From NCBI RefSeq assembly GCF_900116415.1, contig NZ_FPAP01000004.1:124001-188000 (forward strand): a DNA stretch of 64,000 nt, given 5' to 3'. A program made the translations under genes and the position numbers. The DNA is from Chryseobacterium formosense. GTDB lineage: Bacteria; Bacteroidota; Bacteroidia; Flavobacteriales; Weeksellaceae. Below are positions 1,666-40,345 of this stretch, one piece after another (positions within the stretch are counted from its first letter, which is position 1; each line of letters opens with the position of its first letter). Below the pieces are notes generated by a model. It was not told the DNA's origin. It searched no databases and worked only from the letters and a program-made list of their open reading frames with translations.

Positions 1666-3597
1666 TTAATCTAACTGCGTTCCCAAATGTTCCCATTCCT
1701 GTAATGCAAGATCAAGGTCTTCTTTGGTTTTATTGTATTTTTCTAAAGTTTCTTCAGAAGGATTTTCTTTAGTAAAAGAAGCTTCGAATTCTTCAATTTT
1801 TAGTTCAATCTCAGAAATTGTTTCTTCAACTTTCTTCAGTTTATTCTGAATACTTTTTTGTTCTTTGCTGACAATGGTTGGCTGTTGGTTGCTAGTTGCT
1901 GGTTCTTCAACTTTTTTAGCCTTTACCTCAACCTTGGGCTCTTCACCATGAAGTTTTGCTTTTTCGGCAGAAATCTCTCTGATTGATTCTTTCTGTCTGA
2001 ATTCAAGATATTCATTGATATCTCCTAAGAATTCTTTCATTTTACCATCCCGGAATTCATAGATTTTATCACAAAGTCCCTGTAAAAACTCTCTGTCGTG
2101 CGAAATGACAATTAAAGTACCTTCGAACTTCTGTAAAGCTAATTTGATAATTTCTTTAGACTGAATATCCAGGTGATTGGTAGGCTCATCCATAATCAAC
2201 GTATTGAACGGACGCAGCAACAATTTACAAAGTGCCAAACGGTTTCTTTCACCTCCGGAAAGTACTTTTGTTTTTTTATTTACCGCTTCACCCTGGAACA
2301 AGAAAGATCCTAATAAATCACGAACTCTTGGTCTCGTTTCTTCGGTAGCAGAGTCTTCTGCTTCTTCCTGAACGGTTTTATTAGGCGTTAACACTTCTTC
2401 CTGGTTTTGGGCGAAGTAACCAATATTTACGTTGTGACCCAAGTTCCAGTTTCCTGAATAATCTTTGATGTCTCCGGCAAGAATTTTTGCTAAAGTGGTT
2501 TTCCCCTGTCCGTTTTGCCCAAGAAGGGCAATCCTGTCGCCACGTTGTACGATGAAATCAACATCATCAAAGATCTGCTTTTCACCATAAGCTTTCCCAA
2601 GATTTTCAGCTTCGAAAATAACTTTTCCGGGAATCTGCGACTGTACGAAACGGATATTGAATTTAGAAACGTCTTCGTTATCCACTTCAATACGTTCTAT
2701 TTTATCTAATTTTTTAATCAAAGACTGGGCAAAAGATGCTTTGGTAGCACTTGCACGGAATTTATTGATGTTATCTTCCATCTGCTTGATTTCCGCATCC
2801 TGATTCTTTTTAGCCTGAATCAGTTTTTCACGGCGGTCTTCACGCATGATTAAATATTTGGAATAATTGGCTTTGTAATCGTCAACTTTTCTGTTGTTCA
2901 CATCAAAAGTACGGTTACAAACCGCTGTCATAAACTGCTTATCGTGACTTACCAAAACAATTCCTCCGGGATAATCTTTCAAAAAGTTCTCCAACCAAAT
3001 GATGGATTCCATATCGAGGTGATTGGTAGGCTCATCGAGAAGCATGAGATCATTTTTTTGAAGAAGCAATTTTGCCAGTTCGATTCTCATTCTCCATCCC
3101 CCTGAAAATTCGTCGGTGATTTTTTGAAAATCATCTGCTTTAAAACCAAGACCAAAAAGAACTTTTTCGATGTCACCTTCCAGATTATAAGCATCATGAT
3201 GCATCAAAAGATCATTCAGATCAGTCATTCTGTTAATCAAATCGGTATAAGAATCACTTTCATAATCAGTTCTTACGGTCAATTGATGATTGATTTCTTC
3301 CAATTCATCTTTCCATGCATTGATTTGCTCAAAAGCCTGCATTGTTTCATTCCAAACCGTTCTGCCTTTCACAAAATCAAGATCCTGCTTTAGAAAACCA
3401 ATCGTAATATTTCCTTCGGGAACAACATTTCCTTCGTAGAAATTGATTTCCCCGGAAAGCATTTTTAAAAGCGTAGATTTCCCCGCTCCATTTTTACCGA
3501 CCAACCCAATTTTATCATCTTTTTTAATGGTAAAATTGACGTTTTGAAACAAATAGTTACCCGAATGATGTAATCCTAAACCCTGAACCGAAAGCAT
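1666..3597 (-). CDS. ABC-F family ATPase (translation factor type)
   Basis: A 643-residue cytosolic protein with two ABC nucleotide-binding domains in one chain and no membrane segments. Cassette 1 has Walker A GKNGAGKST at 34-42, signature FSGGW at 164-168 and Walker B LMLLDEPTNHLD near 184. Cassette 2 has GQNGQGKTT, LSGGERNRLAL and LIMDEPTNHLD. The charged helical linker between them (about 240-305) is the ABC-F P-site tRNA-interacting region. The last 100 residues are a Glu/Lys-rich coiled coil like that of Uup. ABC-F proteins act on the ribosome, relieving stalls or giving antibiotic protection; which subgroup this is cannot be decided here. A Gln/Ser/Thr-rich patch before the coiled coil derives from repeat-like DNA (see findings). 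Confidence 0.92.
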   Translation of the reverse strand: MLSVQGLGLHHSGNYLFQNVNFTIKKDDKIGLVGKNGAGKSTLLKMLSGEINFYEGNVVPEGNITIGFLKQDLDFVKGRTVWNETMQAFEQINAWKDELEEINHQLTVRTDYESDSYTDLINRMTDLNDLLMHHDAYNLEGDIEKVLFGLGFKADDFQKITDEFSGGWRMRIELAKLLLQKNDLMLLDEPTNHLDMESIIWLENFLKDYPGGIVLVSHDKQFMTAVCNRTFDVNNRKVDDYKANYSKYLIMREDRREKLIQAKKNQDAEIKQMEDNINKFRASATKASFAQSLIKKLDKIERIEVDNEDVSKFNIRFVQSQIPGKVIFEAENLGKAYGEKQIFDDVDFIVQRGDRIALLGQNGQGKTTLAKILAGDIKDYSGNWNLGHNVNIGYFAQNQEEVLTPNKTVQEEAEDSATEETRPRVRDLLGSFLFQGEAVNKKTKVLSGGERNRLALCKLLLRPFNTLIMDEPTNHLDIQSKEIIKLALQKFEGTLIVISHDREFLQGLCDKIYEFRDGKMKEFLGDINEYLEFRQKESIREISAEKAKLHGEEPKVEVKAKKVEEPATSNQQPTIVSKEQKSIQNKLKKVEETISEIELKIEEFEASFTKENPSEETLEKYNKTKEDLDLALQEWEHLGTQLD

Positions 3598-9236: not shown

Positions 9237-10198
9237 CAGCCCCGAATATCAGAATGATCAATCCTACCCAGAACCTGAAATTTATCGCCCATTATTTTAC
9301 CCAAATCCTGCGTTGCAATGAATGAACAGGAATGAATATTTGCTAAGTCAATAATATTGATCGCTCCTGTTCTGCCTTCTTTTTCATAATTAAACGGGTC
9401 TTCTGCGTTTCTTACCAGGATTCTCATCCAGTTCGGGCATTGGTAGATATTTTCACCTAAAGAATATGCCTGAGAAAGCAATTCTGTCATCGAATATTCT
9501 GAATAAATTTTATCGGTTTTAAAACCTTCCTGTAGAATTTTCAATAATTCATCTTTGGTCATCTCTTCTTTTCGCCCTTTCATTCCGCCGGTTTCAATGA
9601 CAGTTAAAGTGTCGGAGAGTTTGAGGGTTTGAGAGTTTGAGGTGCAGTAATCTAAGAAATCTAAAAGCGCAAACGAAACTCCGAATAAAATGACCTTTTT
9701 GTATTTTAGATCATTCAAAAGCTTGAACAGATCTTCGTGATTGTACAGGAAATATCCGTTTTCGGTTTTGCCGGATTTTTTCATAAGGTAATCAACCATA
9801 TAAATCAGCGACGAATTCTGCTTTTCAAGATAACTTGGCAACAGACCCAGGAAAATAAAATCTTCAGGCTTTCCGATAAACTGATCGAAACTTTTATAAA
9901 TGCTTTCCTGATAGATATTTTGGTCCGCTATAAAATGTTTAGACAGATTCATCTGCGTTGTTCCCGAGCTCTGAAAATATAATTCTGTTGAAATATTTTT
10001 ATTTAAAATCTGATGATTTTTAAACATTTCAATTGGCAGAAAAGGAATTTTCGCCAGTTCATCTACATTTTGAGGATCAATCTTCAGGTAATCAACAAAC
10101 TTTCTGTAAATCTCAACATTTTCATATTGAAATCGGAAAGTTTCGAGACAGGCTGTCAAAAAATCTTCTTCGGTCTTTATGTCAAAAATATTTTTCAA
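9218..10198 (-). CDS. LuxE/PaaK-family acyl-protein synthetase / acyltransferase
   Basis: A 326-residue adenylating-enzyme relative with the nucleotide-binding motif FQSSGTTQ (75-82). The family activates carboxylic acids: LuxE charges fatty acids for bioluminescence, PaaK makes phenylacetyl-CoA. No lux or paa genes are nearby, so this orphan form, common in Bacteroidota, probably has another acyl substrate. The start is TTG 10198; a stop lies upstream in frame and no ATG exists. The segment around TSNSQTLKLSD (about 184-195) is encoded by repeat-like DNA, which suggests a tolerated surface loop. Confidence 0.8.
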   Translation of the reverse strand: MKNIFDIKTEEDFLTACLETFRFQYENVEIYRKFVDYLKIDPQNVDELAKIPFLPIEMFKNHQILNKNISTELYFQSSGTTQMNLSKHFIADQNIYQESIYKSFDQFIGKPEDFIFLGLLPSYLEKQNSSLIYMVDYLMKKSGKTENGYFLYNHEDLFKLLNDLKYKKVILFGVSFALLDFLDYCTSNSQTLKLSDTLTVIETGGMKGRKEEMTKDELLKILQEGFKTDKIYSEYSMTELLSQAYSLGENIYQCPNWMRILVRNAEDPFNYEKEGRTGAINIIDLANIHSCSFIATQDLGKIMGDKFQVLGRIDHSDIRGCSLLVS

Positions 10199-10256
10199 TT
10201 TATTTTTCAGATTAAATTTTAAGCTTATTGATTCAAAATGAATCTTTTACATTTTG

Positions 10257-10264
10257 CAAACCTA
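10257..10264 (-). promoter_or_regulatory. TAnnTTTG promoter box of the LuxE-like gene
   Basis: The minus strand reads TAGGTTTG, about 58 bases before the TTG start at 10198. It lies back-to-back with the plus-strand promoter proposed for the candidate small RNA. Confidence 0.4.
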
Positions 10265-10268
10265 AATA

Positions 10269-10404
10269 TTTGTAATTTATTTATTTGGAGAGCATACTTT
10301 TGGTCAAGTTTTTGCAACAACAAAATCGGAATATGGATTAGTAATAAAGAGTGTAGAACCTTTATTCAAGAATTGCCTCAAATTTTTTTGAGGTAATTTT
10401 TTTA
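10269..10404 (+). ncRNA. Candidate small RNA: orphan promoter and terminator without an ORF
   Basis: On the plus strand, TTTG at 10269-10272 is followed after 22 bases by TACTTTTG at 10295-10302, matching the Bacteroidota promoter pattern. At 10376-10393 CCTCAAA pairs with TTTGAGG and is followed by a T-rich tract to 10404, a plus-strand terminator. Both flanking genes are on the minus strand and no sensible reading frame lies between. The expected transcript would be about 90-95 nt from about 10309. This is inference from sequence signals only. Confidence 0.35.
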
Positions 10405-10405
10405 T

Positions 10406-11176
10406 TTAATTCTCAAATTTTTTCAATTCAAAATCATGTTCAAAAACTCCATAGGTAAAATAAGATATCCAATCTCCCAAATTGATGTATTTCGAATTTT
10501 TTTCTAAATCTAAAACCATCGGCAAATGTCGGTGACCATAAATAAAATAGTCGATATTCTCTGTTTCCAGCTTTTTTTTAGAATAAATAATCAGGAACTC
10601 TTTATCTTCTCCCAAAAACGCCTTGTCTTCATCACCGGAAATCAGTTTGTTTTTCTGCGACATATACAATGCTATTCTCATTGCAATATCTGGATGAAGC
10701 CATTTGAAAAACCACTGCGCAACAGGATTGGTAAAGACTTTTTTCATTCTTTTGTACCCTTTATCTCCGGGTCCTAATCCATCTCCGTGAGCCAGTAAAA
10801 ATTGTTTTCCGGAAATTTCAAAGTATTGTTTTTTATAAAAAACAGTGCAGCCGATTTCTTCTTCCAGATAATCTTTCATCCACAAATCGTGATTTCCAAC
10901 AAAGAAATACACCTGAATTCCGCGATCTTTCAGTTCTGCAATTTTACCAAGAACACGTACATAACCTTTTGGAATGACGTGATTCCATTCGTGCCAGAAA
11001 TCGAACAGGTCGCCCATCAAAAACAAAACCTGCGCATCTTCTTTGATCTCATTCATCCAACGGATAAATTTGGCTTCACGCAGTTTGCTTTCTTTCGGAT
11101 CCGGAGAACCAAAATGCTGATCTGAAGCAAAATATACTTTTTTACCGGGTTCTAAATTGATGGTTGTTTTTAACAC
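10406..11176 (-). CDS. lpxH: UDP-2,3-diacylglucosamine diphosphatase
   Basis: A 256-residue metallophosphoesterase that makes lipid X from UDP-diacylglucosamine in lipid A synthesis, at the inner face of the inner membrane. The full metal-ligand set is visible: SDQHFG (Asp19, His21), GDLFDFW (Asp56), GNHD (Asn95, His96), AHGDG (His130, Asp132) and YGHRH near 207. The start appears to be GTG 11176, 23 bases after queD on the same strand, so it is probably the second gene of a queD-lpxH unit. Confidence 0.9.
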   Translation of the reverse strand: MLKTTINLEPGKKVYFASDQHFGSPDPKESKLREAKFIRWMNEIKEDAQVLFLMGDLFDFWHEWNHVIPKGYVRVLGKIAELKDRGIQVYFFVGNHDLWMKDYLEEEIGCTVFYKKQYFEISGKQFLLAHGDGLGPGDKGYKRMKKVFTNPVAQWFFKWLHPDIAMRIALYMSQKNKLISGDEDKAFLGEDKEFLIIYSKKKLETENIDYFIYGHRHLPMVLDLEKNSKYINLGDWISYFTYGVFEHDFELKKFEN

Positions 11177-30886: not shown

Positions 30887-31900
30887 ATGCAGGAAAATTT
30901 CTCCTTAAAACCTTTTAATACTTTTGGTGTAGAAGCCAAAGCAAAATATTTCATTGAGGTAAATTCTGTTGACGAATTAATTGAAACACTCAAACACGCC
31001 CACTCTCAAACTCTCCCACTTCTATTCTTAGGAGGCGGAAGCAATATTTTACTGACCAAAGATTTTGACGGTTTAGCAATTAAACTGAATTTAAAAGGAA
31101 TTTCTGAAAAAGCCCTCAATGAAAATGAAGTTTTAGTTACTGCAAAAGCGGGCGAAAACTGGCACGAATTCGTCATGTCCTGCTTAAACAAAAACTACGG
31201 CGGATTAGAAAATCTTTCCCTGATTCCGGGAAATGTGGGGACTTCACCGATGCAGAATGTCGGAGCATACGGAACAGAAATCAAAGATATTTTTGTGGAT
31301 TGTAAAGTTTTGAATCTTGAAACGCTTGAAATTGAAACTTTTAATCTTGAAAAATGCAGATTTGGGTACAGAGATTCTATTTTTAAGCAGAAAGGAAAAG
31401 GAAAATATGTGATTCTGGAAGTTAGTTTTAAATTAACATCTAAAATTCATTCCATTAAAACGGAATATGGCGCTATAAAATCCGAGCTAGAAAATTTAGG
31501 AATTACCAATCCTACCATTCAGGACATTTCGAAAGCGGTTATTAACATCAGACAAAGCAAACTTCCTGATCCTAAAGAAATCGGCAATGCAGGAAGCTTT
31601 TTTAAAAATCCTACAATTCCTTTAGCTCATTTTGAAAATCTAAAAGAACAGTTTCCCAATATACAAGGATATCCGAATGAAAATTTTGTAAAAGTTCCTG
31701 CAGGATGGCTGATCGAACAGTGCGGCTGGAAAGGCAAACAGATCGGAAATGTTGCCTCTCACAAACTTCAGTCTTTAGTGATCATCAACGCTACAGGAAA
31801 TGCAACCGGTAAAGAAATTTTTGATTTCTCAACTTTAATTATTGATTCTGTAAAAGAAAAATTCGGGATTGAACTGGACAGAGAAGTGAATATTCTTTAA
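30887..31900 (+). CDS. murB: UDP-N-acetylenolpyruvoylglucosamine reductase
   Basis: A 337-residue flavoenzyme reducing enolpyruvyl-UDP-GlcNAc to UDP-MurNAc, the step after MurA. FAD-binding LGGGSNILL (about 47-55), PGNVGTSPMQNVGAYG (about 115-130), YRDSIFK with the catalytic Ser region, and NAGSFFKNP are all present. The length and C-terminal part fit the E. coli-like type I MurB. Residues near HAHSQTLPLL derive from repeat-like CTCAAACTCTC DNA. Start ATG 30887; it is probably co-transcribed with the two genes before it. Confidence 0.95.
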   Translation: MQENFSLKPFNTFGVEAKAKYFIEVNSVDELIETLKHAHSQTLPLLFLGGGSNILLTKDFDGLAIKLNLKGISEKALNENEVLVTAKAGENWHEFVMSCLNKNYGGLENLSLIPGNVGTSPMQNVGAYGTEIKDIFVDCKVLNLETLEIETFNLEKCRFGYRDSIFKQKGKGKYVILEVSFKLTSKIHSIKTEYGAIKSELENLGITNPTIQDISKAVINIRQSKLPDPKEIGNAGSFFKNPTIPLAHFENLKEQFPNIQGYPNENFVKVPAGWLIEQCGWKGKQIGNVASHKLQSLVIINATGNATGKEIFDFSTLIIDSVKEKFGIELDREVNIL

Positions 31901-31964
31901 CAAAAAAAACTTCAATACCCATCTTCTGACATTTGTCATTTATTTTAATTCATTCTAAATAAAC

Positions 31965-31995
31965 TTTGTTTCTGTAAATATAATTGTTATTTTTG
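31965..31995 (+). promoter_or_regulatory. Consensus promoter of the TonB-DUF4876-DUF6850-peroxidase cluster
   Basis: TTTG at 31965-31968, a 19-base spacer, then TATTTTTG at 31988-31995, an exact match to the Bacteroidota TTTG-N19-TAnnTTTG pattern. ATG 32027 follows after about 31 bases. Confidence 0.7.
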
Positions 31996-32026: not shown

Positions 32027-34786
32027 ATGATGATCAGGCTATTAACTTTCGTAATACTATTTTTCTTCGGCTCCCAACTCTTATTTGCTCAAAATGAGAG
32101 ATTACAATTAAGCTTAACTATTTCCGGAGACAATCAGCAAAAATTAAAAAATGTATCCGTAAAAAGTTCTGAAAAAACTACAGTTACAGACGAAAACGGA
32201 AATGCTACCCTTTTATTAAACAAAGGAAAACATCATCTTAAAATATATCATTCTAATTATCAGGAAAAAGAAGTTGATATTACACTCAGCAGTTCCACAA
32301 GCTTAAATTTTCAGCTACAACCCATTAATCAGCTTGAAGAATTGGTCATGTTTTCGAAAGAAGACAAAGGTTTAACGACAAAATCGGTTATCGACAGAAA
32401 AGCAATGGAGCATTTGCAGCCATCCAGCTTAACCGATCTGATGGAACTTTTACCCGGTGGATTGGCAAAAACTCCCGATCTAACCGTCAACAACAGACCA
32501 ATGCTTCGTGAAAACAGAGGAGGACTTTCTTACAAAACCGATGATTATAATACTTCTGCTTTAGGAACTCAGTTTATGATTGACGGAAATGTGATCAACT
32601 CTAATGCAGATATGCAGGTTTCATTGGACAACAGACAGTTTGGTGAAGGACCAATGGCTAGAGAAACTGCAACCACGGGTGTTGATATGAGAACAATTTC
32701 TACAAACGACATCGAAAAAGTAGAAATTATCCGAGGTATCCCGTCTGCATCTTACGGTGATCTTACCTCCGGAGTGATAAAAATCGAAAGAAAAATTGGC
32801 GAATCTCCTTTACAGGCGAGATTTAAAGCAGATGGCTTCAGCAAGCAATATTATGTTGGAAAAGGTTTTAAAATTAATGATAACTGGCAAATCAGTGCAG
32901 GTGCAGATTTTTTAGATTCAAAAGCAGATCCGACTGACGATTTTGAGAACTATCAGAGAATGACCGCATCCATCCGTTCAAAAAAGGAAGGAAATCTGTG
33001 GTCTAATCCTTTGGAATGGCGCTCCAATATTGATTTTTCGAGCAATATAGATTCACAGAAAAACGATCCAGATAACGGAGCTCCCGAAATCGACAAATAC
33101 AAGCAGACGAGAAACAGAATCAGTTTTACAAATAACTTCTTATACAGCTTAAACGAATCTTCGGTTTTCAACAAAATTATTTTAAACACAGCGATCAGAC
33201 AGGGATTTGAAAAAATCGATCAGACCAAACTCGTACAGTTATCCGGACCAAGATCTTTTTCATTGGCTACTGAACAGGGCGAAAATGTTGGTGTTTTTCC
33301 GGTTCTTCGTTACATCAGTGATTATTCAACGGAAGGAAAACCTTTAGATATTACAGCAATGCTTCAGGCGACGGGTACAAGAAATACTTTCGGAGTTTCG
33401 CATCAATATGAAGCAGGTTTAGACTGGAGATATTCTAAAAACAACGGCAGAGGTTTAATTTACGATATGAATTCGCCTTACACAGCAGATTTAAGCAATT
33501 CAAGACCAAGACCTTTCAACGACATTCCGGCTTCCAATTTACTGGCTGCGTTTTTGGGAGACCAGATGAGCTACGAGATTAATCAGCATAAATTTACATT
33601 ATACACTGGTTTGAGATTTTCAAAGCAATTGGGAATTGATAATTCTTATGCCATCAGCAAAAAAGTTTTTGTGGAACCAAGATTAAATTTGCAATATAAT
33701 CTTCCCCACCTGATCATCAACAATTCTCCTTTAAAAACTGATATTACTTTAGGATACGGACAGTTTTATAAACAACCAACACTTTTAATGCTTTATCCGA
33801 ACAGAGAATATTGGGATTACACACAGCTGAATTATTATCATAATGATGCACAATATCGTTATGTAAATTTCATGACGTATGTACAGAATGTTGAAAATAA
33901 AAACCTTGAAGCGGCTAAAAGCATCAAAAAGGAATTAAGACTAGATCTGTCATATAAGAATCATAACCTTTTCATTACTGTTTTCCAGGAAGATATGACA
34001 AATGGTTTCCGTCCTATGAAACACACTGTTCTTCATACTTTCAAACAATACGATGCTTCTCAGGTAGACCTTTCACAATGGAATAACGGACCAAATCTGG
34101 CGAATACTCCCTACATCGACAGAAAAACAAATGCTGAATATCTAATGACCGAAAACGGAAGTAGCACCATTAAAAACGGTATCGAATTCGGGTATACTTC
34201 CCCACGTTTTAAGGCAATCAATACAAGATTTACTTTGAGTGGAGCTTATTTTAAAACACAACTGAGAAATTCAGTTCCTGTGGTAGAAAAACCGAATGCA
34301 TCAATCGGTCCCGATGGATTTCCTTATTATGGAATTTATCAAAATGATTTAGGCTATGTAAATTCTAATATGAATTACAACCTTTTCATCGATACTTATA
34401 TTCCTAAAATGGATCTGACGATTTCTGCATCATTCCAGGGCAGCTTTTTCGACTATAACAGAAATGACAAAAGAATTGCAGAACCTATCTCTTATTACGG
34501 AATCGACGGAATTGTACATCCTTTTACCGAAGCAGATAAAACAGATACATACAAACAGTGGCTCGTAAGAAACGTTTCAGTAACAGATAACCTACCTACA
34601 GAATATACTTTCACTTTTGCAGCCAACCTGAAAGTTACAAAGAGTATCTACAAAGACATCAAAACATCCATGTTTGTGACAAGGATCTTTAATTATAGTG
34701 CGCCTTACTATTTCAACAATTTACTGATTGAAAGAAAAGCAGCCAACAGACCTTATTTCGGGATGGAATTAACCTACAATTTTTAA
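32027..34786 (+). CDS. TonB-dependent receptor with carboxypeptidase-regulatory-like domain
   Basis: A 919-residue outer-membrane receptor. Signal peptide about 1-21 (ending LLFAQ), a CarboxypepD_reg-like sandwich about 28-105, then a plug about 115-245 (SVIDRKAMEHLQPSSLTDLM; STNDIEKVEIIRGIPSASYG), and a 22-strand-type barrel ending with Phe (MELTYNF). It lacks the SusC signatures and has no SusD partner. It is first of four plus-strand genes with a DUF4876 lipoprotein, a DUF6850 barrel and a di-haem peroxidase. The substrate is unknown; a metal chelate or a small redox-active ligand is inference. Confidence 0.92.
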   Translation: MMIRLLTFVILFFFGSQLLFAQNERLQLSLTISGDNQQKLKNVSVKSSEKTTVTDENGNATLLLNKGKHHLKIYHSNYQEKEVDITLSSSTSLNFQLQPINQLEELVMFSKEDKGLTTKSVIDRKAMEHLQPSSLTDLMELLPGGLAKTPDLTVNNRPMLRENRGGLSYKTDDYNTSALGTQFMIDGNVINSNADMQVSLDNRQFGEGPMARETATTGVDMRTISTNDIEKVEIIRGIPSASYGDLTSGVIKIERKIGESPLQARFKADGFSKQYYVGKGFKINDNWQISAGADFLDSKADPTDDFENYQRMTASIRSKKEGNLWSNPLEWRSNIDFSSNIDSQKNDPDNGAPEIDKYKQTRNRISFTNNFLYSLNESSVFNKIILNTAIRQGFEKIDQTKLVQLSGPRSFSLATEQGENVGVFPVLRYISDYSTEGKPLDITAMLQATGTRNTFGVSHQYEAGLDWRYSKNNGRGLIYDMNSPYTADLSNSRPRPFNDIPASNLLAAFLGDQMSYEINQHKFTLYTGLRFSKQLGIDNSYAISKKVFVEPRLNLQYNLPHLIINNSPLKTDITLGYGQFYKQPTLLMLYPNREYWDYTQLNYYHNDAQYRYVNFMTYVQNVENKNLEAAKSIKKELRLDLSYKNHNLFITVFQEDMTNGFRPMKHTVLHTFKQYDASQVDLSQWNNGPNLANTPYIDRKTNAEYLMTENGSSTIKNGIEFGYTSPRFKAINTRFTLSGAYFKTQLRNSVPVVEKPNASIGPDGFPYYGIYQNDLGYVNSNMNYNLFIDTYIPKMDLTISASFQGSFFDYNRNDKRIAEPISYYGIDGIVHPFTEADKTDTYKQWLVRNVSVTDNLPTEYTFTFAANLKVTKSIYKDIKTSMFVTRIFNYSAPYYFNNLLIERKAANRPYFGMELTYNF

Positions 34787-34814
34787 TAAAAAAAAATAAT
34801 TAAATAAAATCAAC

Positions 34815-36044
34815 ATGAAGAAAAGTGTATTATTATTAGGCTTAGTAGCGGCAATGGCAACCGGATTTACGGTAACCTCATGCTCGAGTGATGATGATTT
34901 CGGAAACTCGGTTTCGCAAACAGGCGTTTTAACAATGAATTTTACCGGGGAAGGAATCGCTACGTACAAAACTTTAGACATTTCAATCAAAGAAATCAAT
35001 ACGGGAGCAATCACAGAATTTACCATTCAGAATACCAATGCACATTCTATTGAATTACCATTCGGATCTTACAATATTACCGTAAACGGAATCGTTGTGA
35101 GTACCGATTCAGAACAAATCAATGTAGGAGCAACAGCCGTTACAGATATTAAAGTAAATGCAACGAACACAACAATTCCACTTTTGGCAAAAAGATTTGG
35201 CAATGATTTCATCATTGAAGAAGTATTTTTTACGGGAGTAAGAACCCCGGACAATAAAAACTATAATTCGAGCAGATATTTTAAAATCACCAATAATACA
35301 GATAAGGTTTTAGACGCAGCAAACCTGATCATTGGGCAGTCTAATTTCCTTACAACTTCCAATGACAACCCTACTCCTTACAATGTAAATGATTATTTCC
35401 CTGTAAAAGGGGTGATGGTTTTGGAAAGCAGTTCTCCAAAACTTGTTCAGCCCGGAGATTTCATCGTAGTTGCAGATAATGCGATAAACCATTCTCAAAA
35501 CACTTCAACAGCTTATAATCTACAGAATGCAGATTGGGAATTCCCTTCTACAAATCCTGCTTTAGGTCAGGTTGACAATCCAAGTGTACCGAATGTAGAT
35601 GTTATTTTTACAACAATGGGTTTTCCAGATATGTTTTTCCTTCACAACAGAGGTTTTGAAAGCTATGTAATTGCACGTTTTCCGGCAGGAGAAAATACAG
35701 GTACTTTTCTTCAGAACCAAAAATACGATTACACTTATGTAAACAGTGCAGGAAATGTTACCGCAAGAAGTGCTTATAAAATTCCGAATTCTTGGATCGT
35801 GGACGGCGTGAACAACAGTATCCCGACAGATTTTGTTCAAACCCTTACTTCGGCAAGTATCGATGCAGGCTGGACCTCAGTAGGTTCTATGAACAACGAT
35901 GCAACACGTTACGGAAAATCGGTAAGACGTAAAGTGATCGGAAAAACTTCTGAAGGCAGAAACGTTTATAAAGACACCAACAATTCTACATTGGATTTTG
36001 TAAAAGATTCTCAGCCAAGCTTAAAAAACGGGATTTCTCACTAA
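34815..36044 (+). CDS. DUF4876 lipoprotein
   Basis: A 409-residue protein with a lipoprotein signal (lipobox VTSC, Cys23, followed by SSDDD, an export signal to the surface in Bacteroidota). It starts with a beta-sandwich of carboxypeptidase-regulatory type (about 35-125), then a larger domain with TPDNKNYNSSRYFKI, QPGDFIVVAD and NADWEFP. This wording fits DUF4876, whose function is not described. The gene starts 28 bases after the receptor, so the lipoprotein is a likely surface partner capping or feeding the receptor (inference). Confidence 0.85.
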   Translation: MKKSVLLLGLVAAMATGFTVTSCSSDDDFGNSVSQTGVLTMNFTGEGIATYKTLDISIKEINTGAITEFTIQNTNAHSIELPFGSYNITVNGIVVSTDSEQINVGATAVTDIKVNATNTTIPLLAKRFGNDFIIEEVFFTGVRTPDNKNYNSSRYFKITNNTDKVLDAANLIIGQSNFLTTSNDNPTPYNVNDYFPVKGVMVLESSSPKLVQPGDFIVVADNAINHSQNTSTAYNLQNADWEFPSTNPALGQVDNPSVPNVDVIFTTMGFPDMFFLHNRGFESYVIARFPAGENTGTFLQNQKYDYTYVNSAGNVTARSAYKIPNSWIVDGVNNSIPTDFVQTLTSASIDAGWTSVGSMNNDATRYGKSVRRKVIGKTSEGRNVYKDTNNSTLDFVKDSQPSLKNGISH

Positions 36045-36074
36045 TCCCGGTTTACAATTTATTAAAACATAGGT

Positions 36075-37592
36075 ATGTTCAATATTAAAACTTCTTTCGC
36101 CGCACTTTTTGTCGTTTGCTTTTCTTTAGTAAAAGCTCAGGACAGTCTTGATTTTTTTAATAACTACCGCAATCAGTACAGTGCAGAAAGAAATTTAAAA
36201 TCACAGTTTTACTATAATCCGGCTTCAATGTCGGGTTATAGTTCTACTTCATTCTCAGAATTCGGAATAGGTTATCATTCAGAAAAAAAAGACATTTACA
36301 GAGAACAGCTTGGTGCAGGAGATCAAGGATTGAAAATCTATGTAAATTCTTTTCAAAAGCTCAACGAAAAAAGATCAGTCTGGGGAAAAGCCAGCTATGA
36401 AAGTCTGAAGCAATTAAAGCTAAAATGGAACGAAAATCTTGATTTTGACCGTGTTGCACCTTATCTTTTGGCAGATTCTGTAGGCGGAGACATGAAACTG
36501 GAAAGATATTCTTTTGCAGGAGGTTATTCTGAAAAGTTCAACCGTTTTACATTAGGAATTGAAGCCAACTACACCGCACAATTGGGCTATCGTTCAAGAG
36601 ATCCGAGAATCAACAATACAACTTCCGATCTTTGGGTAAATGCAGGCTTGAATTACAAAGCATTCAGAGAGTACGAAATTGGAGTTTTCACAAGATTAAA
36701 TAAGTACACCCAAAACAGCAGCATCTCATTTGTAAGTCTTTTAGGAAATCCATACGTTTATCAGATGGTTGGTTTAGGCTACTCCAACAACTTTTTCAAT
36801 GGCGGAAAATATGGGATTGCATTCGAAGAACTGGGTTATCAGGTCGGTGCACAGATCAACAATAAAGCAGGAAAAGATTTCTATATTCAGGCAATCGTAG
36901 GAAATTCTAAAAACACAAAAAACATCCAGATCAACAATCCGTATTTTGAAGCATCAGATTTACAGAACGAACAGTTTGTTTTCGAAGGCGCCAAATTTTT
37001 CAATCTGAATGACCATCACAGATTCGGCGTCTTTGCCAACTATTCTGCTTCTGTAAAAACAGGAACCGAATATGGTTACTCTATCAATACACAACGTACA
37101 GAACAGATTTTTGAAAGAAAAGCTTACCGTAAAGAAGATTATGCATCGATGTTTAAGTTGATGTATCAATATTCAAAAAATAATTTTACATTGAATGCGA
37201 CTCCGTTTTTCGGTCATCAGGAAATCAAAGAGAGAAGGTTATATCCGGGTTCCGGACAAAAATTTCTTTACAATTATTTTGGAATCAATGCAGATTTCCA
37301 ACAAAAATTAAACGAAAAACAGGTCTTGACTTTTCAGCCTTATTTCACAAAACGAATCGTAAACAAATCGATCTGGGCGATTACATCAACTTCAAATGCA
37401 GCCATCAACGAATGGGTTCTTCAGGATTATCTTTTCCAGACAAGTGATATAAGCACTTTCGGAGCTTCATTAAGATATGATATTAAACTTGAAAAACTCC
37501 CTGCATTTTTCGTAAGCGCAGAATATCAGTCGCAGAAAATTCAGAAAAAAAACAATAATTTTGTCGGCGCAAGTTTAGGAATTACTTTTTAA
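36075..37592 (+). CDS. DUF6850-family outer-membrane beta-barrel protein
   Basis: A 505-residue protein with signal peptide (about 1-21, ending VKAQ) and alternating amphipathic strands throughout, ending in Phe (ASLGITF), as for outer-membrane barrels. SAERNLKSQFYYNPASMSGY near the mature N terminus fits DUF6850. No TonB plug is present, so it is not a second receptor. It lies 30 bases after the DUF4876 gene. Possible roles are a secretion or diffusion channel or a scaffold for the cluster; this is inference. Confidence 0.8.
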   Translation: MFNIKTSFAALFVVCFSLVKAQDSLDFFNNYRNQYSAERNLKSQFYYNPASMSGYSSTSFSEFGIGYHSEKKDIYREQLGAGDQGLKIYVNSFQKLNEKRSVWGKASYESLKQLKLKWNENLDFDRVAPYLLADSVGGDMKLERYSFAGGYSEKFNRFTLGIEANYTAQLGYRSRDPRINNTTSDLWVNAGLNYKAFREYEIGVFTRLNKYTQNSSISFVSLLGNPYVYQMVGLGYSNNFFNGGKYGIAFEELGYQVGAQINNKAGKDFYIQAIVGNSKNTKNIQINNPYFEASDLQNEQFVFEGAKFFNLNDHHRFGVFANYSASVKTGTEYGYSINTQRTEQIFERKAYRKEDYASMFKLMYQYSKNNFTLNATPFFGHQEIKERRLYPGSGQKFLYNYFGINADFQQKLNEKQVLTFQPYFTKRIVNKSIWAITSTSNAAINEWVLQDYLFQTSDISTFGASLRYDIKLEKLPAFFVSAEYQSQKIQKKNNNFVGASLGITF

Positions 37593-37733
37593 TACAATTC
37601 GCTTAAAAATCTTTAATTAAAATCAATGTATTGATTCTTAAAAAAATCAATGAGATATTTCTAAAATTCTTAATGGTTTAAAAATAATTTGCATAAAATT
37701 TATTCATCAAAAAAAAGGAATATTTAATTTAAA

Positions 37734-38882
37734 ATGAAAAAAGGAATTTATTGGAGTTTAGGATTGATTTTATTTATTCTTTGGAGTTTTACCTCAAAAG
37801 TCGGAAACGAATTATCAAACATTCAGGATCCAACCATTGAAGACATAGTAAAAAGCTACAAAAAAGCCATCACAGAATGGCCAAAACCCAATATCGACAA
37901 AGGTGTAAAATGGCAGGAATTTGCTGCAATCAAAACCGATTCAGCTTATTTCACAGAACAGGACAAACCGAATGTTATTCTAGGAAAAATGCTTTTTTTT
38001 GATCCTAAATTATCTCAATCCAACCAGATTTCCTGCAGCTCTTGTCACGATCCTGAAATGGGATGGCAAGATAGAAGACGTGTCGCTTTAGGAAACAGCC
38101 ATCTTCTAGGAAACAGAAACACCATGTCGCTTTACAATATTGCCGAAAGAACTTCTTTCTTTTGGGACGGAAGAGCGAAAACTTTGGAAGAACAGGCTTC
38201 GGGTCCGCTTGGAGCCCATCATGAAATGGCTATGGATGTAAAGACACTTCCCGCAAAAATTCATAACATCAAAGGTTATCAGGACCTTTTCAAAAATGCT
38301 TACGGAACAGAAAAAGTGACTTATGAAAAGATCGTAAAAGCAATCGCAGACTTTCAGAAAACCATTAAAAGCCAGCCAAGCCGTTTTGATAAATTTCTCG
38401 AAGGAAAATATAACTCGCTAACAGACGAAGAAATCTACGGAATGCATATTTTCCGTACCAAAGCACGTTGTATGAACTGCCACAACGGACAATATCTTAC
38501 CGATGAATCTTTCCACAATATCGGTCTGACCTATTACAAAAGAAAATACGAAGATTTAGGTTTATACAATGTCACCAAAAAAGCTGAAGACGTGGGGAAA
38601 TTCAAGACCCCTCAGTTACGAGATTTGACACTCACTCAGCCATGGATGCACAACGGGCTTTTTGATAATCTTGAAGGTGTTGTTAACATGTACAACAGCG
38701 GAATGCACCAAATCGACCCGACTCCCGAGAAAAAATCGGCAGACCCGCTCTATCCTTCCACAGATCCATTACTGCAGAAATTAAATTTAACAAAAGACGA
38801 AACAAAAGCTTTGGTTTCTTTCCTGGAAGCCCTTTCCGGGACAAAATATAAAATGAGAAGACCAGAATTTCCGGTGGAGTAA
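37734..38882 (+). CDS. Di-haem cytochrome c peroxidase family protein (CCP/MauG-like)
   Basis: A 382-residue periplasmic protein with a hydrophobic signal (about 6-19). Two c-type haem sites are CSSCH (Cys101, Cys104, His105) and CMNCH (Cys246, Cys249, His250). WDGRAKTLEEQ and KFKTPQLRDLTLTQPWMHNG are family hallmarks. Family members reduce peroxide or, as in MauG and MbnH, oxidise protein or cofactor residues. It comes fourth in the TonB-DUF4876-DUF6850 cluster after a 141-base gap, which suggests a redox step on the imported ligand or on a partner protein (inference). Confidence 0.92.
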   Translation: MKKGIYWSLGLILFILWSFTSKVGNELSNIQDPTIEDIVKSYKKAITEWPKPNIDKGVKWQEFAAIKTDSAYFTEQDKPNVILGKMLFFDPKLSQSNQISCSSCHDPEMGWQDRRRVALGNSHLLGNRNTMSLYNIAERTSFFWDGRAKTLEEQASGPLGAHHEMAMDVKTLPAKIHNIKGYQDLFKNAYGTEKVTYEKIVKAIADFQKTIKSQPSRFDKFLEGKYNSLTDEEIYGMHIFRTKARCMNCHNGQYLTDESFHNIGLTYYKRKYEDLGLYNVTKKAEDVGKFKTPQLRDLTLTQPWMHNGLFDNLEGVVNMYNSGMHQIDPTPEKKSADPLYPSTDPLLQKLNLTKDETKALVSFLEALSGTKYKMRRPEFPVE

Positions 38883-38959: not shown

Positions 38960-40345
38960 ATGGCGGCTGATAAAACATATTCAGATAAAGAATTCAAAAA
39001 AATAATCCAAAAGCATATCGACAGAATTGATTTTGTAAAGGTTAATCTTGAAGACGATTCTTCAATTTTAGGCTTCATCGTAAAAGCATCTGATGATTTT
39101 CTAATGATAGAAGAAACCAATGATTTTTCTTTAGCTGGAACTAAAATTGTACCTTATGAAAGAGTTTCGGGGATTCGCCATGGCTTGTCAGACAAAGTTT
39201 CAAAGATGATTTATTCTAAAGAAGGATTAATCAAATTGAATCAAAAAATCATCAAAAACACATCTCTAAAAGATTTTGAAGAACTTTTCAATTCGATCAG
39301 AAAACAAAATTTCCATTGCATTGTTGAAAGCAAAAAGAAAGAGGAGGAATTATTTTCAATCGGTGAAATTTTAGAGGTTAATGAAAAATCTGTTATCATC
39401 AAAAATTATAGTCCTGTCGGTAAAATTGATAAAAAACCGAGAAAAATTAATTTTAAGCATATAGAAATCATTAACTTTAATGATAATTATTTCTGTAGTT
39501 TTCAGAAAATACATATTCGAATAAAAATTAAAAACACAAATATGAAAATCGCCATCATCGGAGCCGGAAACATGGGTTTATCTTTTTCAAAATCATTTTT
39601 GAAATATGAACTGATAAAACCGGAAAACCTTCATCTCATTACAAGAAATCAAGCTAAAATTCAGAAAATTTCAGAAGAATTTCCAAAATCGAAAATTTCT
39701 TTATTTGAAAATCTGAATGCAATAGATGCAGATTTAATTATTATCGCTGTAAAACCACAGGATTTTCAGAAAACCGCCGAAAATATCAAATTTTCATTTA
39801 AAGAAAACCAGATGATTCTGTCGATTATGGCGGGAATTAAAATCGAAAAAATCCAACATTTATTAAATCATAAACTGGTTGTACGAGCAATGCCCAACTC
39901 ACCTACTCTTTTGGGAATGGGAATTACAGGTTATACTTCTGCACAAGGAATTTCTTTTAATCAACTAATGAATATCGAAAGACTTCTGAACAGCACAGGA
40001 AGATCTGTTTATCTGGAAAACGAAGAACTTTTAGATGGTGTAACTGCTCTTTCAGGAAGCGGACCGGCTTATTTTTATTACATTGTCGATGCCATGATCA
40101 AAGCCGGAACAGAAATGGGAATTGATGAAAATCTCTCAAAACTTTTTGTGAAACAGACAATGTTGGGAGCGTATCATCTTATTAATAATTCGGATAAAAG
40201 CTTAGAAGACCTGATCAAAGACGTCGCCTCAAAAGGCGGAACTACCGAAGCTGCACTGAAAACTTTTGAAGAAAATAATTTTAAAGAAATTTTGCAGCAG
40301 GGAATTTTGAATGCAGAGAAAAGAGCGAAGGAATTAAACGGATAA
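38960..40345 (+). CDS. proC: Sm-like domain fused in frame to pyrroline-5-carboxylate reductase
   Basis: One open frame of 461 residues. Residues about 195-461 are a full-length ProC: MKIAIIGAGNMG (Rossmann start), AVKPQDF, RAMPNSPTLLGMG, and LSGSGPAYFYYIVDAM with the family's signature. ProC reduces pyrroline-5-carboxylate to proline with NAD(P)H. Residues 1-194 are an unrelated domain with Sm-like wording (KVNLEDDSSILGFIVKASDD, FSLAGTKIVPYERVSGI). No stop separates them, and ATG 39542 marks where an ordinary ProC would start, preceded by leader-like AT-rich DNA. Either a true fusion or a lost stop codon with internal initiation is possible. Confidence 0.85.
   Translation: MAADKTYSDKEFKKIIQKHIDRIDFVKVNLEDDSSILGFIVKASDDFLMIEETNDFSLAGTKIVPYERVSGIRHGLSDKVSKMIYSKEGLIKLNQKIIKNTSLKDFEELFNSIRKQNFHCIVESKKKEEELFSIGEILEVNEKSVIIKNYSPVGKIDKKPRKINFKHIEIINFNDNYFCSFQKIHIRIKIKNTNMKIAIIGAGNMGLSFSKSFLKYELIKPENLHLITRNQAKIQKISEEFPKSKISLFENLNAIDADLIIIAVKPQDFQKTAENIKFSFKENQMILSIMAGIKIEKIQHLLNHKLVVRAMPNSPTLLGMGITGYTSAQGISFNQLMNIERLLNSTGRSVYLENEELLDGVTALSGSGPAYFYYIVDAMIKAGTEMGIDENLSKLFVKQTMLGAYHLINNSDKSLEDLIKDVASKGGTTEAALKTFEENNFKEILQQGILNAEKRAKELNG

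Follow-up and report, generated by a model that had tools for sequence, protein, structure and literature searches.

The four-gene locus

The stretch of DNA analyzed in this work (hereafter, the window) comprises 64,000 nucleotides of the genome of Chryseobacterium formosense (contig NZ_FPAP01000004.1) and embeds a candidate iron-uptake operon of four genes, coding for a TonB-dependent receptor (TBDT), a lipoprotein of the DUF4876 family, an outer-membrane beta-barrel of the DUF6850 family, and a di-haem enzyme of the CCP_MauG family (hereafter, CCP). An initial annotation, made from the sequence alone, had placed these genes in this order on the plus strand, with intergenic gaps of 28, 30, and 141 bases, and the coordinates of the open reading frames (ORFs) and the Pfam matches bear this out. 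The features of the locus are the following:

31940..31962, plus strand: Fur-box-like palindrome TTATTTTAATTCATTCTAAATAA, 64 bases 5' of the receptor ATG, one mismatch against the pattern
31965..31995, plus strand: match to the flavobacterial-type promoter pattern TTTG-N19-TAnnTTTG (-33/-7)
32027..34786, plus strand: TonB-dependent receptor, 919 amino acids (aa), with CarbopepD_reg_2 and Plug domains (Pfam)
34815..36044, plus strand: DUF4876 lipoprotein, 409 aa, lipobox Cys23 followed by SSDDD
36075..37592, plus strand: DUF6850 outer-membrane beta-barrel, 505 aa, 18 long strands in the model
37593..37733, plus strand: gap between DUF6850 and CCP, 141 bases
37734..38882, plus strand: CCP_MauG di-haem enzyme, 382 aa, N-terminal hydrophobic segment (by eye) and no lipobox
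38034..38048, plus strand: first haem motif, CSSCH, CCP residues 101-105
38469..38483, plus strand: second haem motif, CMNCH, CCP residues 246-250
38691..38693, plus strand: Tyr320 of the CCP, at the place of the axial Met of classical peroxidases

The Pfam scores place the last three proteins within their families, i.e., DUF4876 (PF16215; E-value 3e-51, 174.6 bits against a cut-off of 27.9), DUF6850 (PF21012; 6.5e-75, 253.5 bits against 27), and the di-haem family CCP_MauG (PF03150; 1.7e-53, 181.7 bits against 25.6, with two CXXCH motifs). The best NCBIfam models for the CCP are those of MauG (TIGR03791) and MbnH (TIGR04039), both remaining below their cut-offs (216.8 versus 443.85 and 203.6 versus 362.85 bits, respectively); in Pfam, it matches PF03150 only and gives no match to the DUF1111 model, which sets it apart from the EfeB/DUF1111 enzymes. 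In all the 135 CCPs encoded in such clusters, the Cys pair and the His of both haem motifs, as well as W144, E164, and Y320, are invariant, and none of the 135 carries a lipobox-like motif; the His71-type place is variable (N in 65, H in 43, S in 12, and E in 9), with no His in 92. Residue 320, which we take to be the site of an axial ligand, aligns with Met in 6qkn and 3hq8 and with Tyr in 6e1c, so that the axial Met of classical CcpA is lacking and the Tyr would be compatible with a MauG/MbnH-type chemistry.

The predicted model of the DUF4876 protein (predicted local distance difference test, pLDDT, 89.4) has as its nearest solved structure 4q1z, i.e., BT_1938, itself a DUF4876 protein (Z 29.5, root-mean-square deviation 2.5, 262 residues; sequence E-value 2.5e-7). 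The two share the same fold and differ in that they are 24% identical and that 4q1z comes from a Bacteroides locus, the titles giving no function. For residues 34-126, the comparison retrieved immunoglobulin-like and pilin domains at Z 7 to 10, this fold being a common one. The invariant residues (alignment of 39 sequences) include C23, G84, Y86, G141, N160, D330, D350, R372, D387-S391, and D394. After the lipobox, the window protein starts with CSSDDDFG, and at least two of the six residues after the Cys are acidic in 87 of 116 loci, 9 loci having one such residue and 20 having none; for the named loci described below, the corresponding counts are 50 of 79 with at least two, 5 with one, and 20 with none, no Cys having been found in 4. 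Such an acidic stretch is presumably a surface-export-type signal.

The DUF6850 model (pLDDT 90.9) is a porin-like barrel with no plug domain recognized by Pfam. Comparison with the sequences of solved structures gave only weak matches, unrelated by look, and that of the folds gave many barrels at similar Z, from 18.5 downward, and hence singles out no transport type. The receptor had no match at 1e-3 among solved structures.

Promoter and Fur-type box

The initial annotation had also proposed that one consensus promoter, TTTG-N19-TAnnTTTG, precedes the unit. The element is indeed there; the pattern alone is only mildly above chance, since it is matched three times in the window (both strands) against 0.74 expected in shuffled sequences, and two of 100 shuffles reach three matches. 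In the relatives, 77 of 93 loci have the -7 element TAnnTTTG 3' of the Fur-like box, the rate in shuffles being 9%, and only 27 of the 93 have a -33 match as well. A sigma-70 scan performed no better than on shuffles (29 versus 27.2).

The Fur-box-like site at 31940-31962 was absent from that annotation. When up to five mismatches are allowed, 92 of 94 family loci have the palindrome TTATTTTAAWTTATTCTAAATAA 5' of the receptor, compared with 5 of 321 shuffled stretches; with at most three, 96 sites are found in the regions 5' of the receptor (30.7 kb, in 85 of 93 loci, the window being left out of this count) versus 14 in the remaining 1.32 Mb of those loci. Scanning the host genome retrieved 13 sites versus four with the reversed pattern. 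Six of them have at most two mismatches, namely that of the four-gene unit and the following five:

L179: before a 183-aa ORF (2892-3440, minus strand), the box lying 93 bases 5'; the protein has no Pfam match
L180: before feoA-feoB (FeoA read by eye)
L181: before a receptor with a PepSY-like gene (the latter read by eye, no Pfam match)
L182: before an operon coding for a TBDT, HmuY, and a periplasmic binding protein
L183: before another TBDT

The remaining seven sites are weaker: L181 has one of them, as its second site, and six (L184-L189) have no recognized iron-related gene nearby and may be due to chance. In Riemerella anatipestifer, the Fur box is ATTTAGAATTATTCTAAAT and the hmuR site is ATTTAAAATTATTCTAAAT, four promoters having been tested by electrophoretic mobility shift assay (PMC5609570). 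The window site differs from the Riemerella consensus at 4 of 19 positions, its right half being perfect (hand count). A sequence match of this type in the promoter region is what would be expected of a member of the Fur regulon, and it suggests that the four-gene unit is probably under Fur control and switched on by iron shortage.

Distribution and conservation of the gene order

Among 246 genomes of the host's family, DUF4876 was found in 88, DUF6850 in 95 (89 over the cut-off), and CCP_MauG in 176; in a phylum-wide draw, DUF4876 occurs in 15 of 198 genomes. The gene neighbourhood was compared in 102 loci (100 family loci, L050, and the window), annotated with profiles grown from the window proteins; four family places, in genomes G331, G360, G362, and G390, were left out, and L090, embedding two units, was counted once. 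Genes were called by the longest ORF in the fetched loci, and small negative gaps are therefore artefacts of start choice. Receptor, DUF4876, DUF6850, and CCP genes are strictly adjacent in 93 of the 102 loci, and the CCP gene is present in 96. The neighbourhood that the initial annotation had expected to be conserved across relatives is thus confirmed, and the inclusion of the CCP in the unit is borne out both by this presence and by its divergence together with the other members (see below). In L093, the DUF6850 gene is split, and in L067 and L085 extra ORFs lie between the genes of the unit. The gap between DUF6850 and CCP does not exceed 15 bases in 93 of 96 loci, being longer only in L118 (34), the window (141), and L105 (170).

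In the named-genome set (the best 79 of 483 relatives), 39 loci harbor a CCP gene, and they belong to Flavobacteriia (Chryseobacterium, Elizabethkingia, Myroides, Flavobacterium, Tenacibaculum, and others) and to Sphingobacterium mizutaii; the 40 CCP-less loci comprise 38 of Bacteroidales and two of Flavobacteriia (L211 and L237), considering that L211 (Myroides) stops at a contig end, where a CCP would escape, and that some contigs of metagenome-assembled genomes are short. The 38 Bacteroidales loci, all devoid of a CCP, fall into three groups without overlap, namely those with an M16 protease (19), those with PepSY and/or DUF4857 (15), and those with none of these (4). All 19 M16 genes (e.g., L267, L257, and L239) are on the same strand and start between -180 and +175 bases from the end of the TBDT-DUF4876-DUF6850 unit. 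Of the 15 loci with PepSY/DUF4857 genes, 10 have them 3' of the unit and on its strand; in the remaining five (L230, L233, L235, L253, and L261), the matches lie 5' of the unit or on its other side. Outside the class, yet within the phylum, the locus L056 of a GC-rich genome also harbors a CCP gene, separated from that of DUF6850 by one small gene.

The in-house DUF6850 profile missed L054, which Pfam finds; DUF6850 misses outside the family are therefore no proof of absence. At the DUF6850 place, L058 and L063 have an ORF of the same size with no DUF6850 match, and L060 has no such ORF. As a separate observation, genes for an extracytoplasmic function (ECF) sigma factor (L059) and for FecR (L062) stand before the receptor gene, the L062 receptor having an STN-like domain (below the cut-off), and L060, L063, and L064 resemble L059 and L062 by eye. 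These ECF sigma, FecR, and STN-like receptor features, which speak for iron uptake, suggest a signal-transducing role in some distant relatives.

Co-divergence of the CCP with the unit

In the 90 loci with all four proteins, the pairwise distances of the CCPs correlate with those of the receptor (0.971), DUF4876 (0.960), and DUF6850 (0.952), and vertical descent would account for part of this correlation. In 89 of the 90 loci, the closest CCP comes from another genome and shares the DUF4876 clade. Twelve genomes embed two complete units, the CCPs of which are only 41-60% identical within the genome; in all 24 loci concerned, the nearest CCP is that of another genome and of the same DUF4876 clade, and never the genome-mate. 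Because the nearest CCP follows the DUF4876 clade even in two-unit genomes, the enzyme appears to be an old, dedicated member of the unit rather than a chance neighbour.

Iron response of related loci

The DUF4876-receptor iron stimulon is already in print. In iron depletion, Porphyromonas gingivalis PG1019-22 is up 20.8-214.5 fold and, in Bacteroides thetaiotaomicron, BT3625-33 is up 36.7-128 fold and BT1933-39 3.5-7.4 fold (PMC10434189); BT_1938, the protein of structure 4q1z, falls within the latter iron-responsive range. The table of the genes with the strongest under-expression in P. gingivalis W50 under excess haemin includes both HmuY and a DUF4876 gene, the latter with a log2 change of -5.42 (PMC10470040). 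PG1019 varies with hmuY in two more data sets and PG1020 in one of these two, and in proteomics PG1019 varies together with HmuY and flavodoxin (PMC10101095, PMC12119571); polyphosphate lowers PG1019 (PMC4236598). These iron and haemin data come from P. gingivalis and B. thetaiotaomicron, neither of which is shown to carry the CCP form.

PG1019-22, BT1938-39, and BT3625-33 likewise combine a TonB receptor with a DUF4876 lipoprotein and are induced by iron depletion; they differ from the window locus in their other accessory genes and in that no CCP is named there, as far as the accessible portion of the report goes (PMC10434189). The Bacteroides fragilis locus L251, in which TBDT, DUF4876, and DUF6850 are followed by PepSY, ABC, and DUF4857 genes, has a layout like that of BT3633-3625. 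The four-gene unit can be filed as a variant of the TonB-receptor-plus-lipoprotein iron importers. Our literature search, which left most subscription papers outside its scope, found nothing on DUF6850 and three papers on DUF4876, no report of the four-gene operon in Elizabethkingia or Riemerella, and none of the four-gene form with its di-haem enzyme, Fur-type box, and co-divergence. The word 'peroxidase' is absent from the accessible main text of the Riemerella iron RNA-seq paper (PMC5429918).

Possible role of the unit and of its di-haem enzyme

The initial annotation had suggested the uptake of a metal or metallophore. The metal-uptake role is supported, and the metal can be sharpened to iron, because the Fur-type box and the induction of DUF4876-TBDT loci by iron depletion render iron uptake very probable, and copper uptake not. 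The explanation that we favour, and in which we have moderate confidence, is that of a Fur-repressed outer-membrane iron-uptake operon provided with its own oxidizing enzyme acting in the periplasm. According to this model, low iron would lift the Fur repression, as the box and the relatives suggest; the receptor and DUF4876, the latter tethered to the outer membrane with a probable outward orientation, would capture an iron carrier (siderophore, haem, or iron protein), to be imported into the periplasm via TonB, in keeping with their families and location; the DUF6850 barrel, on the basis of its model, might represent a second pore for the ligand or for the spent carrier; lastly, and speculatively, the CCP might oxidize the cargo or its iron in the periplasm, thereby releasing the iron. 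Gene order, Fur-type box, CCP co-divergence, and the models of barrel and lipoprotein were computed, and the remaining mechanism is our inference.

The last step is suggested by the position of the CCP, which stands where many Bacteroidales have an M16 protease or PepSY/DUF4857, and by the precedent of the EfeB-imelysin systems. In FusA-FusC ferredoxin import, a TonB receptor is associated with an M16 protease, and the M16 gene directly 3' of TBDT-DUF4876-DUF6850 in 19 Bacteroidales loci recalls such iron-protein piracy; to our knowledge, DUF4876 and DUF6850 do not occur in FusA-FusC systems. Imelysin-type iron lipoproteins are paired with periplasmic EfeB/DUF1111 di-haem peroxidases (PMC3143127), a likewise iron-related combination of lipoprotein and di-haem peroxidase that differs from ours in the lipoprotein and in the Pfam family of the enzyme. 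That the CCP acts on the cargo or its iron, and not on a partner protein or in defence, is a tentative proposal, falling slightly short of what we would call probable.

By extension, TBDT-DUF4876-DUF6850 might be a general iron-carrier importer of Bacteroidota with an exchangeable periplasmic unloading enzyme, the di-haem oxidase freeing iron by oxidation of the carrier; this generalization is possible and rather doubtful. In Bacteroidales, the unloading would be the task of M16 or PepSY/DUF4857, whereas in Flavobacteriia, in Sphingobacterium, and in a single distant, GC-rich representative of the phylum it would fall to a di-haem oxidase of the MauG type. We know of no use of MauG-class di-haem enzymes to free iron from imported carriers. 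Under the favoured reading, two families of unknown function, DUF4876 and DUF6850, gain a testable role in iron uptake under Fur; a MauG-class di-haem enzyme seems to be dedicated to an importer of the outer membrane, with which it has diverged; and comparing lineages that differ in the downstream gene becomes a way to address the fate of iron carriers inside the periplasm.

A different possibility is a MauG/MbnH-like maturation, in which the CCP would oxidize an aromatic residue of DUF4876, DUF6850, or the receptor to produce a metal-binding or cross-linked site. The Tyr at the axial place as in 6e1c, the invariant E164 and W144, the two best NCBIfam models (even if below cut-off), and the tight co-divergence with the operon all speak for it. 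However, none of the Trp, Tyr, Met, Cys, and His columns in the receptor, DUF4876, or DUF6850 tracks the CCP (131, 134, and 133 loci with it versus 52, 60, and 48 without, respectively), a column passing if the residue is present in at least 0.85 of the loci with CCP and the difference is above 0.5. DUF6850 Y145, Y229, and Y351 had seemed CCP-tied in a first, small set (97 versus 14 loci) and were not upheld in the larger one: Y145 occurs in 133/133 loci with CCP versus 40/48 without, Y229 in 97/133 versus 30/48, and Y351 in 125/133 versus 26/48. Hence, only Y351 leans to the CCP (0.94 versus 0.54), below the 0.5-difference mark, and receptor Y590 does so more weakly (0.95 versus 0.65). Columns of other residues are tied to the CCP (receptor N369 and N732; DUF4876 D26 and I323) and may be lineage effects. 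A target that is variable, weakly leaning (e.g., DUF6850 Y351), or conserved for other reasons would escape this analysis. Taking into account also that receptor, DUF4876, and DUF6850 persist in loci without CCP, we regard maturation as unlikely.

The DUF4876 Trp residues deserve a separate mention, having been described as several and conserved-looking. W327 and W353 are frequent (101/134 loci with CCP and 42/60 without, and 94/134 and 34/60, respectively; 64/97 and 59/97 in the first set), W327 being nearly invariant (at least 90%) in one alignment of 39 that includes CCP-less Bacteroidales; none is universal, W241 is rare (6/134 and 10/60; first set 5/97), and no tie to the CCP emerges. A Trp conserved together with a di-haem partner, as in MbnP, was therefore rejected. 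The MbnT-MbnP-MbnH copper system unites a receptor, a lipoprotein, and a MauG-like di-haem enzyme in one unit, and the window locus resembles it in these three component types and in the alignment of Tyr320 with the Tyr of 6e1c. The differences are that DUF4876 has no match to the MbnP family model (only PF16215 in Pfam and nothing in NCBIfam), that the CCP is below the MbnH cut-off, and that a Fur-type box is found here. The idea of an MbnP/MbnH-like lipoprotein-peroxidase pair is, in this specific form, not supported by the comparison, in view of the absent MbnP match, the Trp residues untied to the CCP, the 38/38 Bacteroidales loci without CCP, and the MbnH and MauG scores below cut-off.

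Another explanation, to our minds just as improbable as maturation, is peroxide defence, with the CCP clearing periplasmic H2O2 and shielding iron import with no action on the cargo. The enzyme belongs to the CCP family and retains the catalytic Glu and Trp, and its distribution (Flavobacteriia and Sphingobacterium versus 0/38 Bacteroidales, among the best 79 of 483 relatives) fits such a role; nevertheless, a Tyr rather than a Met at the axial place and the absence of His at the His71-type place in 92 of 135 sequences are unlike classical scavengers, and co-divergence with one operon, in genomes that hold several CCPs, suggests a dedicated partner. The uptake of copper or another metal (methanobactin-like), as suggested in the initial annotation, has in its favour a TBDT-lipoprotein-di-haem order resembling MbnT-MbnP-MbnH; it is very improbable given the Fur-type box, the iron-stimulon literature, and the lack of an MbnP match for DUF4876.

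Several observations weigh against the iron-uptake operon with a dedicated oxidizing enzyme. Six family loci (L066, L072, L104, L162, L164, and L139) have no CCP at its place, L139 lacking also an adjacent receptor, and L162 (genome G201) and L164 (G248) having a CCP of the same type elsewhere in the genome (L274 and L272, respectively); among the named Flavobacteriia, the Tenacibaculum locus L237 has none either. The split in the downstream gene tracks taxonomy and may reflect oxygen rather than function. Tyr320 is found in all 22 other CCPs compared (10 orphan, 10 lipoprotein-type, L270, and L271), and it was consequently discarded as a mark of the four-gene unit. Out of 20 non-cluster CCP places, hand-picked among the matches listed, 10 (L272, L274-L280, L283, and L285) have no DUF4876, DUF6850, or receptor match within the surrounding 12 kb, which implies that the enzyme is able to function on its own or to persist after the unit is lost; in L285, the family search detected a DUF6850 fragment beside the CCP, which fits the loss of the remaining unit. 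Outside the family, the palindrome occurs in just 1 of 13 loci (L054), and the box could belong to another Fur-family regulator. Finally, the literature search returned no report of iron binding, transport, or expression for the CCP-bearing form.

Neighbouring genes

The four-gene unit is flanked by murB (30887-31900) on the 5' side and by a proC-containing gene on the 3' side. The flanks vary widely across loci, a murB-sized gene being located 5' in only part of them. In the window, a 461-aa ORF (38960-40345) fuses in frame a domain of the 189-aa type and ProC; in the sister locus L105, the 189-aa gene (9555-10124) and ProC (10140-10943) are separate. The window ORF represents either a fusion or a lost stop codon with respect to the two genes of L105.

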